Assembly: GCF_000376385.1 (NCBI RefSeq)
Contig: NZ_AQWN01000001.1
Span: 104,762 to 168,761, forward strand
Source of the DNA: Desulfurispora thermophila DSM 16022
Lineage (GTDB): Bacteria; Bacillota; Desulfotomaculia; Desulfotomaculales; Desulfurisporaceae
Direction: 5' to 3'
Length of the DNA stretch: 64,000 nt
The position numbers and the translations under genes were made by a program. Each line of letters opens with the position of its first letter. Position 1 is the stretch's first letter. Positions 16,773 through 21,587 of the stretch are shown here, in pieces. The notes beneath the pieces are model-generated. The model ran no database searches. It worked only from the letters and a program-made list of their open reading frames with translations, and had not been told where the DNA came from.

Positions 16773-17333
16773 TTACTGTGCTCCAGCCAGTTTTTTGCCC
16801 AGCTCCAGAGCGGTTTGCATAACAGTGGTGTTTTCTTTTATCGAGCCGGCTGTAGTGGTGCCGGGGGCAATCAATGGTTCGGCTACGTTAAATTGCATAA
16901 AGCGTAGCAAAGAAGCGATTTGCTGAATATACGGGGCGAACATATCCGGGTTGGGCTGTCCCTGGGCAAAAACCAGGGCGGCCTTTTTCCCTTTCAGGCC
17001 GGGAAAAGTGTAATCGGGTTGCATATAGGCAAAGAGCCGGTCGATGACGGTTTTCAGTTGAGCGGTCATTTGCCACATGTATACCGGTGAGCCGAAAACC
17101 ACGGCGTCGGCGGAATCAATCTGCTCATACAGGACCGCCATATCATCCTGTACTGCGCAGGAGCCTTGTTTTTTGCATTTGTAGCAACCCTGACAGCCCC
17201 GGATGTTCATTTTATTAACGTGGAAAACTGCCGTTTGTGCCCCGGCCTGCTCTGCTCCTTTAAGTACCTGCTCCACCAGTGTGGCCGTGTTGCCTTCCGG
17301 GCGAGGGCTGCCCACAATGCCAATCACTTTCAT
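16773..17333 (-). CDS. Flavodoxin-fold NAD(P)H-dependent FMN reductase / Fe-S flavoprotein-like
   Basis: 186-aa protein of the NADPH-dependent FMN reductase superfamily. The FMN-phosphate loop is GSPRPEGNT (residues 8-16), and FGSPVYMWQMTAQLK marks the flavin-ring region. A cysteine-rich stretch GCQGCYKCKKQGSC (about 46-59) matches the compact motif of archaeal-type iron-sulfur flavoproteins, which may hold a [4Fe-4S] cluster. It is monocistronic, with its own terminator. Physiological electron acceptor unknown. Confidence 0.85.
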   Translation of the reverse strand: MKVIGIVGSPRPEGNTATLVEQVLKGAEQAGAQTAVFHVNKMNIRGCQGCYKCKKQGSCAVQDDMAVLYEQIDSADAVVFGSPVYMWQMTAQLKTVIDRLFAYMQPDYTFPGLKGKKAALVFAQGQPNPDMFAPYIQQIASLLRFMQFNVAEPLIAPGTTTAGSIKENTTVMQTALELGKKLAGAQ

Positions 17334-17519: not shown

Positions 17520-18302
17520 TTAATGTACAATGATGCGCCACAGAATACATCCGGCCAAAACCACTGCCAGCAGCCCTATCGATAAATAATCGGCAGGCTG
17601 CATTTTTATTGTCCGGTAGCTGCTGCGCGGGCCGCTGGCGAAGCCGCGCATTTCCATGGAAATGGCCGTCTGTTCTATTTTTTGCACCGTGGTTACCAGC
17701 AACGGGATGGCCAGGGGCAGGATGATGCGCATTTTGCGCATTGGATGGCGCGTATCGGTCTGGTAGCCGCGGGCGGCCTGGGCCTGCAGCACCTGTTCCA
17801 TTTCGCCCATCAGGGTGGGAATCAGGCGCAGGGCGGTAAGAAACATAAAGGCGTAGGTGTATGGGATGCGGCACTTTTCCACCAGCACGGTTGCCAGGTC
17901 GGTCATCCGGGTGGTCAAAAGCAAAATGGGAATGGTGGAAACCGTGGCCAGCATGCGCAGGGCGGCTACCGCGCTCATTTGCAGCCCGGTGTCGGTTACC
18001 CGGCCAATGCTGTGGGTGGGGATGAGATAGAAAAGGGTTTTTCCCTCCTCGACCAGAAATATCTGCAGCAGGACCAGGATGGCGGCAAATATTGTCAGGC
18101 CGCGCAGGGTGGGTAGCATTTCTTTGAGTACGCCGCCGGCAGCGGCCAGCAGCAAGTTGCTCAGCAAGAGAGCCAGAATGAAAAGGGGGCTATCGGTTAA
18201 GAAGCTCAGAATGAGCACGGTTATACTCCACAGCAGCTTGGTGGCCGGGTGCAGGCGGTGTAAGAAAAAATCCCGGTGAGTGTACTCAAGCAGGGCAGCC
18301 AT
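17520..18302 (-). CDS. ecfT: ECF transporter transmembrane (T) component, CbiQ/EcfT family
   Basis: 260-aa polytopic membrane protein that couples the ATPases to the substrate-binding S component. Hydrophobic helices occur at about 20-60, 65-85 and 105-130, with a C-terminal helix. The coupling-helix signatures are seen as AQAARGYQT and MEMRGFASGPRS, the two Ala-Arg-Gly-type motifs of the family. The ATG at 18302 follows GGGGAGGAG and overlaps the upstream ATPase gene by 17 nt. It is the fourth gene of a self-contained ECF operon. Confidence 0.9.
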   Translation of the reverse strand: MAALLEYTHRDFFLHRLHPATKLLWSITVLILSFLTDSPLFILALLLSNLLLAAAGGVLKEMLPTLRGLTIFAAILVLLQIFLVEEGKTLFYLIPTHSIGRVTDTGLQMSAVAALRMLATVSTIPILLLTTRMTDLATVLVEKCRIPYTYAFMFLTALRLIPTLMGEMEQVLQAQAARGYQTDTRHPMRKMRIILPLAIPLLVTTVQKIEQTAISMEMRGFASGPRSSYRTIKMQPADYLSIGLLAVVLAGCILWRIIVH

Positions 18303-19134
18303 CGGTTTCTCCTCCCCGGCAGTGCAGTATGGCGCTGAGCATTTCCGGCGCCGTGCCGGCCCGGTGCAGTGAGCTCCAGGCGGGAAAACGTTTTTGCAAC
18401 ATGCTGGCCAGACGGCAGATCTGGGGCTGTTCCAGACCGGCGGCGTGCAGGGTTTCACTGCGGGCCAGGATAGAGCGGGTCGGCCCGTCGACCACTATCC
18501 GGCCGTCCTGTAATACTATGGCTCGCCTTGTGTAGCTCAGGGCCAGTTCCAGGTCGTGGGTGACCATAATTATGGTCTGGCCCTCCCGGTTCAACTGCTT
18601 TACCAGTTCCATAACGGCCAGACCGGCGCTGTGGGCTTGCCCCGTGGTGGGCTCATCCAGCACCAATACCGGGGTGTGCAGGGCCAGCACACTGGCCAGG
18701 GCTACCAACTGGCGTTGCCCTTTGCTCAGGGCGTAAGGCGGGGCGGACAGCAGGTGGACCAATCCAACCCTTTGGGCCGCTTCCGTAACCAGCTGGGGGA
18801 TTGCCGGGGCAGGATGACCGGTGTTTTTCAGTCCAAAAGCGATTTCTTCGTACACGGTGCGGCAGAAAATTTGATGGTCCGGGTTTTGAAAAAGAAAACC
18901 CACCCGCCGGGCCAACTGGCTGGTGCGGATTTGGCTGATATCCTGGCCGTCAATAACAACTCTTCCCGTGCACGGCCGGAGCAGGCCGTTGAGCAGTTTG
19001 AGCAGCGTCGTTTTACCGCTGCCGTTGGCACCCAGCAGGGCGACAAAGTCTCCCCGGTCAATGTGTAGTGTAATGTCCTGCAGCACTGTGGGGCCCCCCG
19101 GGTATTTATAAGTTACGTTTTCCAGCCGGATCAA
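18286..19134 (-). CDS. ecfA: ECF transporter ATP-binding protein (CbiO/EcfA type)
   Basis: 282-aa ABC ATPase on the cytoplasmic face of an ECF transporter. Walker A is GANGSGKTT (about 35-43), the Q loop FLFQNPDHQI, the signature ALSKGQRQ (SKGQ rather than the usual SGGQ), Walker B VLVLDEPTTG and the switch histidine in MVTHD. It overlaps the other ATPase gene by 4 nt. It would pair with that protein as the A/A' heterodimer. Confidence 0.92.
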   Translation of the reverse strand: MIRLENVTYKYPGGPTVLQDITLHIDRGDFVALLGANGSGKTTLLKLLNGLLRPCTGRVVIDGQDISQIRTSQLARRVGFLFQNPDHQIFCRTVYEEIAFGLKNTGHPAPAIPQLVTEAAQRVGLVHLLSAPPYALSKGQRQLVALASVLALHTPVLVLDEPTTGQAHSAGLAVMELVKQLNREGQTIIMVTHDLELALSYTRRAIVLQDGRIVVDGPTRSILARSETLHAAGLEQPQICRLASMLQKRFPAWSSLHRAGTAPEMLSAILHCRGGETDGCPA

Positions 19135-20033
19135 TTCCCGCCACCTCCCACGGCTGCGCGAGTTGGATTGTGCGACCGGACACTTTGCGCCAGCACCTGG
19201 CTGACCATCAGATACGCTTCTTCAACCGTAACAGGCAACTCACCCTGGTACAGGCCGTGTTCTTTCAGCAACAAGGCCAGTTCGCTCACCGGCGGGTAGC
19301 CACAGCCGGTGCGTTGAATTGCTTCCTTTTGGATAAGAACTTGGCGTACCGGACCGTCCAGGATTATTTTCCCCTGTTCCATGACCACCAACCGGGAGCA
19401 GTACTCGGCCAGCAGATTGATTTTTTGTTCCACCACCAGAATGGCCATCTTGTGCTCGGTGGCCAGACAGCGCAAGGTTTGGAAAACCTGCCGGCTGCCC
19501 CGGGGATCCAGTTCGGCCGTGGGTTCATCCAGCAACAGCACGCGGGGGCGCATGGCCAGCACTGCGGCAATGGCCACCCGCTGTTTTTGCCCGCCGGACA
19601 GGCGGGAGCAGGCGGACTGGCGCAGGTGGAAAATACCGGTAGAGTGCAATGCATCATCAATCCGCTGTGCTATTTCCGCGGGGGGTAACCCCAGGTTTTC
19701 CAGGCCAAAGGCAATTTCTTCCTCTACCACCGGGGCCACCAGCTGGGCTTCGGGATCCTGCAGGACGATGCCCACTGTGCGGGCCGCTGCCGCTCTGCTC
19801 AGGCGGGCTATTTCATGCCCTTCCACCTGCACCCCGCCGGAATAAGCGCCGGAGCGGTGTTTGGGAATGATGCCGGCCAGACAGTGCAGCAGGGTGGTTT
19901 TGCCCGCACCTCCGGGGCCGGTGATGCCCACCAGTTCGCCACTGGCGACTTGCAGGTTAATATTGTGCAGGGCGGGGACAGTGGTTCCCGGGTAGGTAAA
20001 GGAAAGGCTTTGCACTTCCAGTAAAGGCTTCAC
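19131..20033 (-). CDS. ecfA: ECF transporter ATP-binding protein (CbiO/EcfA' type)
   Basis: 300-aa ABC ATPase, second subunit of the ECF energising module. Walker A is GPGGAGKTT, the Q loop VLQDPEAQL, the signature RLSGGQKQR, and Walker B VLLLDEPTAELD; the switch region reads VVEQK rather than a histidine motif, a substitution seen in some asymmetric EcfA pairs. The C-terminal extension (about 230-300) is typical of EcfA proteins. It lies 50 nt after the S-component gene. Confidence 0.92.
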   Translation of the reverse strand: MKPLLEVQSLSFTYPGTTVPALHNINLQVASGELVGITGPGGAGKTTLLHCLAGIIPKHRSGAYSGGVQVEGHEIARLSRAAAARTVGIVLQDPEAQLVAPVVEEEIAFGLENLGLPPAEIAQRIDDALHSTGIFHLRQSACSRLSGGQKQRVAIAAVLAMRPRVLLLDEPTAELDPRGSRQVFQTLRCLATEHKMAILVVEQKINLLAEYCSRLVVMEQGKIILDGPVRQVLIQKEAIQRTGCGYPPVSELALLLKEHGLYQGELPVTVEEAYLMVSQVLAQSVRSHNPTRAAVGGGGN

Positions 20034-20083: not shown

Positions 20084-20659
20084 TTATGCTGCCGGATGTT
20101 CCAGCCGGTCCTTTTTACCCAGGGCAACCAGTATTGGCTGATATAGGGCCTGGGCCAGCACTGTATTGACGGCGGCGGTTACCAGCACCACCAGCAGCAA
20201 ATAGGAGAAAGTGGGGTTCTTCTTGACTTCCACAAAAAGAATGGCCATCTTGAAAATGCTGATATAGGTCAACCCGCTGGCCAGGGTCCCCAGCAAGGTA
20301 ACCAGAGCCGGCTTGAAGGTGTAGCCTTTCAGGCCAAGATCAAAAGGTGCCCGCATCACAGCATAGGCCACCAGTATACCCACCGGTTCGCTGATAAAAT
20401 TGAGGTAAGGTATGAGAGATTTAGTAGTGACCTGGCAGACAGCAGCGGCCACCAGGCCGATGCCCAGCGTTTCTTTCAGGCCGGGGCGCAAAAGACAGAC
20501 AGCCAGACAGTACATGCCGATGACAAAGTTGGGTGTGATGCCCAAAATTTGCGGCGCAAACAGCCGCAGCACCGCGCCGGCGGCCAGCAGAGCCGCTACC
20601 AGTACCACATCGCCCGCTTTCAGACTGCCTTGGGATTGGACCATATCACGTTGAGACAT
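20084..20659 (-). CDS. trpP: Tryptophan-type ECF S component (TrpP-like)
   Basis: 191-aa membrane protein resembling TrpP, the predicted tryptophan transporter of Firmicutes. It has about five to six hydrophobic helices and the pattern ITPNFVIGMYCLAVCLLRPG followed by CQVTTKSLIPYLNFISEPVG, close to what I recall of TrpP. It would bind the substrate within the membrane and use the ATPases and T component encoded after it. Assignment to tryptophan is supported independently by the TRAP-type leader upstream. The ATG at 20659 follows AAAGGAGG. A downstream shared terminator and 50-nt spacings indicate a four-gene operon. Confidence 0.8.
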   Translation of the reverse strand: MSQRDMVQSQGSLKAGDVVLVAALLAAGAVLRLFAPQILGITPNFVIGMYCLAVCLLRPGLKETLGIGLVAAAVCQVTTKSLIPYLNFISEPVGILVAYAVMRAPFDLGLKGYTFKPALVTLLGTLASGLTYISIFKMAILFVEVKKNPTFSYLLLVVLVTAAVNTVLAQALYQPILVALGKKDRLEHPAA

Positions 20660-20699: not shown

Positions 20700-20734
20700 A
20701 AAATAAAAACAGCCAGGATGAACCTGGCTGTTTG
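20700..20734 (-). terminator. Leader terminator (attenuator) before trpP
   Basis: On the minus strand AACAGCCAGG pairs with CCTGGCTGTT around a TTCAT loop, followed by a TTTTTATTTTT run. It lies between the operon promoter and the trpP start, so it must be an attenuator: full transcription requires read-through. Confidence 0.9.
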
Positions 20735-20752
20735 ACGCCTAAATACAACCCG

Positions 20753-20803
20753 CTCGCCTCAGGCTCATCTCGTCTCTACTTGTTCTATAACTCTGCTCAT
20801 CTC
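20753..20803 (-). promoter_or_regulatory. Putative TRAP binding site: ten NAG triplets in the trpP leader RNA
   Basis: In the minus-strand transcript, triplets GAG, GAG, GAG, UAG, AAG, GAG, GAG, GAG, GAG, GAG occur with starts 5, 5, 6, 6, 5, 5, 5, 6 and 5 nt apart, i.e. separated by 2 or 3 nt. Known TRAP sites are 9-11 (G/U)AG triplets with this spacing. They lie 18 nt upstream of the attenuator hairpin. A perfect palindrome at 20807-20822 (GTCGGAGCGCTCCGAC) directly precedes them and may be the 5' stem-loop that assists TRAP in trp leaders. Confidence 0.8.
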
Positions 20804-20837
20804 CGGGTCGGAGCGCTCCGACTGTTTGCTAGCTAAA

Positions 20838-20866
20838 ACTATAATATGCCGGTCGGGGGATGTCAA
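20838..20866 (-). promoter_or_regulatory. Sigma-A promoter of the trpP-ECF operon
   Basis: On the minus strand, TTGACA (20861-20866), a 17-bp spacer and TATAGT (20838-20843). Transcription should begin near 20831, giving a leader of roughly 170 nt that contains the palindrome, the NAG triplets and the attenuator. Confidence 0.85.
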
Positions 20867-21131: not shown

Positions 21132-21587
21132 TTATATCAAGGTACCCATTTGCAGCAAGATGGCGGTGATAGCGGCGGCCATTACCGGACCGCAGGGGGC
21201 GCCGCGAAAAAATAAGGTGCCCACAACCGTGCCCACGGTCAGGCTGAAGACCATTTCGGGGTGGCATTGCAATAGCTGCAGGCCCTGGGCATTGAAATGG
21301 GTGGCCATGGCACCGCCGGCCAGAGCCAGCCAGCCGCCCAGGGTGGTTACGGTGCGGCGGATTTCGGTTCCGTCTATGGTGCCTTTGGCTACCGGTAGCA
21401 AAATGTAAATCATGAGCAGGGTGAGACCGGTCTTTAAAGCGCTGCCTTCCAGCCACTGCAGCAGGATTGCTTGCCGGTCAAAGATTGGTAAAACAATCAA
21501 AATGGTACAGCTGATGGCCACCAGGTGGGAGCGGCTGAACAACGCAACCAGCAAGAGCAGAATGATACCGGCCTGGTGAATATGCAT
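21132..21587 (-). CDS. DUF441/UPF0756 (YeaL-like) membrane protein
   Basis: 151-aa protein with four or five hydrophobic helices, matching the DUF441 family in length and in the glycine-rich segment GTVVGTLFFRGAPCGPVMAA near the C-terminus. Function is unknown in all organisms I know of. The ATG at 21587 follows AGGAGG; a longer frame upstream is unlikely. It is a single gene. Confidence 0.8.
   Translation of the reverse strand: MHIHQAGIILLLLVALFSRSHLVAISCTILIVLPIFDRQAILLQWLEGSALKTGLTLLMIYILLPVAKGTIDGTEIRRTVTTLGGWLALAGGAMATHFNAQGLQLLQCHPEMVFSLTVGTVVGTLFFRGAPCGPVMAAAITAILLQMGTLI

Follow-up and report, generated by a model that had tools for sequence, protein, structure and literature searches.

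The window analysed here, a 64,000-nucleotide stretch of the Desulfurispora thermophila DSM 16022 genome, carries an ECF-type transporter operon on its minus strand. The leader of this operon contains, in order, a promoter, a palindrome, ten NAG triplets and an intrinsic terminator, followed by trpP. This arrangement had been described in a first-pass annotation made from the sequence, and all of its elements were located:

20838..20866, minus strand: promoter TTGACA-17-TATAGT, 11/12 matches
20807..20822, minus strand: 16-nt palindrome GTCGGAGCGCTCCGAC (GTCGGA-GCGC-TCCGAC), candidate 5' stem-loop
20753..20803, minus strand: ten NAG triplets, putative TRAP-binding repeats, kept before trpP orthologues
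20700..20733, minus strand: intrinsic terminator AAACAGCCAGG-TTCAT-CCTGGCTGTTT plus T-run, with a stem of 11 pairs (20733-20707)
20084..20659, minus strand: trpP, ECF S component of a divergent TrpP subfamily (PF17099, 34.4 bits, cut-off 27.2)
19131..20033, minus strand: ecfA, ECF ATPase (ABC_tran), the next gene in all orthologous loci
18286..19134, minus strand: ecfA', second ECF ATPase (ABC_tran), in conserved order
17520..18308, minus strand: ecfT, transmembrane T component (CbiQ; PF02361, 103 bits), conserved

The triplets comprise eight GAG, one TAG (UAG in RNA) and one AAG, as first described (nine GAG/UAG and one AAG), and they are separated by spacers of 2,2,3,3,2,2,2,3,2 nt, in this order. 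This agrees with the roughly 9-11 (G/U)AG repeats, 2-3 nt apart, that mark a TRAP-regulated leader. When TRAP-like sites were scored as chains of spaced NAG triplets, the leader reached 11.3; 40 dinucleotide-shuffled versions of the window peaked at 5.2, and no other site in the 64 kb, on whichever strand, scored 7 or more. No Rfam family matched the window at the gathering score, leaving the leader uncovered. The terminator hairpin has a dG of -17.8 kcal/mol, and trpP starts at the ATG at 20659, preceded by AAAGGAGG. The TrpP-family S component is thus accompanied in the window by dedicated A, A' and T genes. The neighbours of the operon, an FMN-reductase-like protein (16773-17333, minus strand) and a DUF441 membrane protein (21132-21587, minus strand), lie outside the conserved gene order.

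The leader was compared across the 24 genomes of this order (the Desulfotomaculum group) in which a trpP orthologue occurs, counting that of the window. A NAG chain scoring 7.0-14.2 precedes trpP in 22 of them, which bears out the conservation of the triplets expected of a TRAP target. The chain of G007 scores 5.4, and the only trpP genome devoid of any site, G014, is 57% complete and had no detectable mtrB. An intrinsic terminator lies 3' of the repeats in nearly all orthologous leaders, and a promoter of the GTGACA-17 type occupies the matching place in most of them. The trpP carriers named in a separate scan belong to Desulforamulus, Desulfofundulus and Pelotomaculum, and also to Heliobacteria, Pseudobacteroides and a Desulfosporosinus MAG.

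The 16-bp palindrome is perfect and lies just downstream of the -10 box, a typical operator position, so it might be the DNA operator of another repressor that exerts the main control, with the NAG run playing a secondary part. Its sequence is not conserved, and several Pelotomaculum leaders have a hairpin with another sequence in a similar position (GTGAAAGG..CCTTTCAC, GGAAGG..CCTTCC). Because a hairpin that changes its sequence but keeps a comparable place is what is expected of an RNA stem, we find an operator hardly credible. Most relatives share a conserved box, GACAATTTCATA, that separates an upstream NAG cluster from the main repeats and immediately precedes the latter (L099, L105, L106, L109, L110 and other trpP leaders); the window has no copy of it. 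In relatives the flanks of the repeats (GACA..TGTC) suggested a closing helix, which was rejected, as its energies were no better than those of shuffled linkers (2/30 trpP leaders at 5%, median 0.49).

The TRAP proposal predicted an mtrB gene elsewhere in the genome, and one was found (G000:C14:24048-24248, PF02081, 139.8 bits). The 66-residue core of its product aligns without gaps with the solved TRAP structures, and the motifs EKLD, IKxRG (IKIRG), GLTRG, DTRFHH and QFTEHTSA are all present; judging by B. subtilis TRAP, we take these motifs to carry the RNA- and tryptophan-binding residues. Among 120 related genomes, mtrB was found in 109. The search for rtpA (anti-TRAP), which the first-pass annotation had named together with mtrB, gave no match in the window genome that reached the cut-off of 32 bits. 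The sole weak match, at 22 bits, lies within a 379-codon open frame and was rejected.

An attenuation mechanism calls for an alternative structure linking the repeats to the terminator. The strands of the proposed antiterminator are as follows:

20756..20768, minus strand: 5' strand, AUGAGCCU plus GGC, overlapping the last repeats
20718..20728, minus strand: 3' strand, GCC/AGGUUCAU, within the terminator's 5' arm and loop

Eight pairs may form between AUGAGCCU (20768-20761) and AGGUUCAU (20725-20718), and three more between GGC (20758-20756) and GCC (20728-20726). This duplex has an energy of -14.7 kcal/mol; shuffling the 5' arm gave a mean of -10.0, and 3.5% of the shuffles did as well; in the iorA leader of the same genome the corresponding values are -16.0 kcal/mol, -10.6 and 2.5%. 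An antiterminator overlapping the repeats, as the first-pass annotation had envisaged, can therefore be drawn, but its mean pair probability in a transcript ending at the terminator loop is only 0.25, and the leader has a stronger fold, with an MFE of -24.7 as opposed to -22.8 when the antiterminator is forced. When repeat-terminator pairing was evaluated in 46 leaders, seven were at 5% or better (median 0.33), a modest gain over composition; the combined p of 0.001 is drawn from related sequences. With the repeats held unpaired in folding, the terminator is the only 3'-end structure formed. Pairing between the repeats and the 5' arm of the terminator is thus plausible as an antiterminator, with moderate thermodynamic support, and it is the weakest link of the attenuation model.

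Taken together, these data make it probable, at about 0.87, that the leader in the window is a TRAP (MtrB) attenuation leader which is off when tryptophan is plentiful. With ample tryptophan, Trp-loaded TRAP would wrap around the ten NAG repeats as the leader emerges and keep the last of them from pairing with the 5' arm of the terminator; without this antiterminator the terminator would fold and trpP-ecfA-ecfA'-ecfT would be left untranscribed. Under tryptophan scarcity TRAP would be empty, the antiterminator could form and the transporter would be made. TRAP binding and the direction of the switch are what we infer from this arrangement: since the repeats could pair with the 5' arm of the terminator, Trp-TRAP is expected to turn the operon off, and the same logic, switching off by Trp-TRAP, operates in the B. 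subtilis trp leader (PMC4347634, PMC13170310). B. subtilis TRAP is described as able to cause termination even without the attenuator (PMC3913778).

The leader resembles that of B. subtilis trpEDCFBA in that NAG repeats overlap a (proposed) antiterminator and lie 5' of an intrinsic terminator, in the presence of a 5' hairpin and in the (here predicted) involvement of Trp-activated MtrB. It differs in its target, an ECF transporter operon, in having 10 triplets, including an AAG, where B. subtilis has 11, in its sequence, in belonging to another bacterial order and in that rtpA was not detected. The relation to B. subtilis trpP (yhaG) is different. There, too, a TrpP-family gene is under TRAP control (predicted in our case), but TRAP is described as blocking ribosome binding (Yakhnin 2004, as cited in PMC4347634; PMC13170310), whereas the window has a terminator 3' of the repeats and dedicated A, A' and T genes for the S component.

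TRAP could also act here mainly by blocking translation of the trpP transcript, as in Bacillus subtilis, the terminator being incidental. Such a mode would fit the more distant G119, which encodes a Bacillus-like TrpP and has repeats overlapping the start codon, as well as the Desulforamulus-type leaders L007, L008, L011, L013, L014 and L016, in which a second NAG cluster covers the Shine-Dalgarno sequence and the trpP start. In these six leaders the second cluster suggests dual control, by termination and translation. In the window, by contrast, 93 nt separate the end of the repeats from the ATG, AAAGGAGG is free of any NAG cluster, and a strong terminator intervenes between repeats and ATG, as it does in nearly all orthologous leaders. 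Translational blocking as the main mode is therefore improbable for this operon, and the attenuation-type arrangement on an ECF operon with A, A' and T genes, recognised in the first-pass annotation, holds up across the relatives.

TRAP attenuation of the operon appears to be part of a wider regulon. Two more TRAP-type leaders with terminators were found in the window genome:

G000:C3:276058 onward (L088 10053-10290, plus strand): leader before trpE, repeats and terminator
G000:C12 (L192): leader before iorA-iorB-paaK, repeats and terminator

The trp operon leader consists of seven triplets, an interposed, possibly structured stretch, about three triplets and the terminator. The search of this genome used a pattern of five strict 2-nt-spaced KAG triplets; because such a pattern misses irregular sites, including that of the window itself, the regulon may be incomplete. 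One further TRAP-like site, G000:C9:103495, lies inside an open reading frame and was taken as a chance match.

In 19 of 23 relatives the operon has the order TRAP leader-trpP-ecfA-ecfA'-ecfT-iorA-iorB-paaK. It is split in two in the window genome, G018 and G104, and each half has its own TRAP leader. Genomes that lack trpP (G008, G022, G042, G043, G051, G077) have the repeats before iorA or before dctP-dctQ-dctM-iorA-iorB-paaK, and in five further genomes chains scoring 6.0-8.5 lie directly before the linked (group-1) iorA. As a control, 20 regions upstream of an unlinked second iorA paralogue were scored, and none reached even 5. In L194-L198 (G051, G022, G042, G077, G060) a TRAP leader with a terminator precedes a gene for a DctP-type solute-binding protein; in G051 the order after the leader is dctP-dctQ-dctM, then iorA-iorB-paaK.

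Other candidate sites lie before other types of transporter genes. In Desulforamulus putei, two NAG clusters accompanied by hairpins that resemble terminators were seen before an AA_permease gene (L210 3149-3299, plus strand). A NAG chain with a terminator occurs in G045 before a gene for a TrpX-like ABC binding protein (L140 1501-1528, plus strand), whose NF041285 match of 297 bits is below the cut-off of 390.

The regulon looks like a programme of tryptophan acquisition, comprising synthesis, uptake and, probably, rebuilding from indole-3-acetate, because TRAP is shared with the trp operon and iorA-iorB-paaK usually belongs to the trpP operon; this is the most economical reading. The iorA-iorB-paaK genes could alternatively serve the opposite end. 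In that case TRAP would favour read-through, and tryptophan would induce its own uptake and oxidative breakdown, with IorAB and PaaK acting catabolically; IOR enzymes indeed work oxidatively in amino-acid-fermenting anaerobes (PMC13285125). Against this, the order of the elements equals that of the trp biosynthetic leaders in the same genomes, the repeats can pair with the 5' arm of the terminator, a Trp T-box, which turns genes on in tryptophan starvation, serves one relative instead, and the system is kept in auxotrophs. We accordingly regard induction by tryptophan as very unlikely.

Three independent signs, namely auxotrophs, a Trp T-box and a DctP protein, point to acquisition of tryptophan rather than its breakdown. 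Firstly, trpE, trpC and trpA are undetectable in the Pelotomaculum-group genomes G050, G068, G106 and G110 (completeness 74-97%) and likewise in G105 and G119, while G002 lacks trpC and trpA and matches TIGR00564 only weakly, below the cut-off; all seven genomes have mtrB and TRAP leaders on trpP or iorA.

Secondly, in a Peptococcaceae MAG a T-box (RF00230, 94 bits; L213 5644-5922, plus strand) takes the place of the TRAP leader before trpP-ecfAA'T-iorAB-paaK, and in its specifier loop, read by eye, UGG (Trp) follows GAA. T-boxes turn on with uncharged tRNA, and this one gives the same logic as the TRAP leader, on when tryptophan is short.

Thirdly, the best PDB matches of the G051 DctP are 4n6d, 4pgn/4pgp and 4nap (284-298 bits, the next being 137), of which we take 4pgn/4pgp to be Dde_0634. 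The structure 4PGP is mentioned in PMC9973260, and Dde_0634 is an indole-3-acetate-binding solute-binding protein (PMC9973260, PMC9543091). By these best matches, Dde_0634 resembles the DctP of the TRAP-led dctPQM-iorAB-paaK operon; this similar DctP is found in trpP-less relatives and is absent from the window.

A precedent for the enzymatic steps is described, in a secondary account, for Methanococcus maripaludis, in which arylpyruvates are made from aryl acids via IorAB and an aryl-CoA ligase (Porat 2004, cited in PMC4162585). The likeness of DctP to Dde_0634, combined with this precedent, suggests that indole-3-acetate is rebuilt into tryptophan. PaaK would make indoleacetyl-CoA from indole-3-acetate, IorAB running reductively would make indolepyruvate, and transamination would then give tryptophan. 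The common points with the M. maripaludis route are indolepyruvate:ferredoxin oxidoreductase and the (here predicted) formation of aromatic amino acids from aryl acids; the Desulfotomaculum group differs in that the genes are linked to a transporter under a tryptophan-sensing RNA switch.

Both the direction of IorAB and the transported substrate are what we infer from this context. Tryptophan had been put forward as the substrate of the ECF transporter. The operon context allows it, but the assignment was too narrow, as indole-3-acetate is allowed equally well. The window TrpP scores only 34 bits against the TrpP family, compared with 141 for the Bacillus-like TrpP of G119. A more specific version can be formulated for the whole Desulfotomaculum group: TRAP would attenuate trpP-ecfAA'T-iorAB-paaK or dctPQM-iorAB-paaK as a tryptophan salvage regulon, in which indole-3-acetate enters through the transporter and is turned back into tryptophan by IorAB and PaaK through reductive carboxylation, and this would be the main reason why auxotrophs keep TRAP. 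We offer this version tentatively, with the odds somewhat against it.

Earlier comparative work on TRAP outside Bacillus was reportedly done by Gutierrez-Preciado in 2005. TRAP attenuation, in the B. subtilis trp operon, and translational TRAP control of trpP are already known; the B. subtilis targets given in a 2026 paper are the trp operon, trpG, trpP and ycbK, with trpP controlled at translation only (PMC13170310). In the literature searched, where coverage of subscription journals was incomplete, no paper was found on TRAP control of iorAB-paaK or on attenuation of trpP or a TrpP-ECF operon. Judged from sequence, TRAP attenuation would extend in these bacteria to several unrelated transporter families, not only TrpP-ECF and DctPQM, both with terminators, but also a TrpX-type ABC transporter and an amino-acid permease, and to the iorAB-paaK operon, and it would be kept in bacteria predicted to be unable to make tryptophan de novo. 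This provides a common gene cluster of anaerobes with a testable function and its IOR enzyme with a predicted anabolic direction, and it indicates a candidate route of indole-3-acetate salvage in syntrophic and sulfate-reducing bacteria.

TRAP-like sites were also seen in connection with trp genes. Within trp operons, NAG clusters (GAGaagGAGgaGAG) cover the trpD ribosome-binding site in L114, L116, L117, L118 and L119, an arrangement that, by analogy, resembles TRAP-controlled translation. NAG chains also occur upstream of trpB-like genes in L206, L207 and L208 (G082, G111 and G119).
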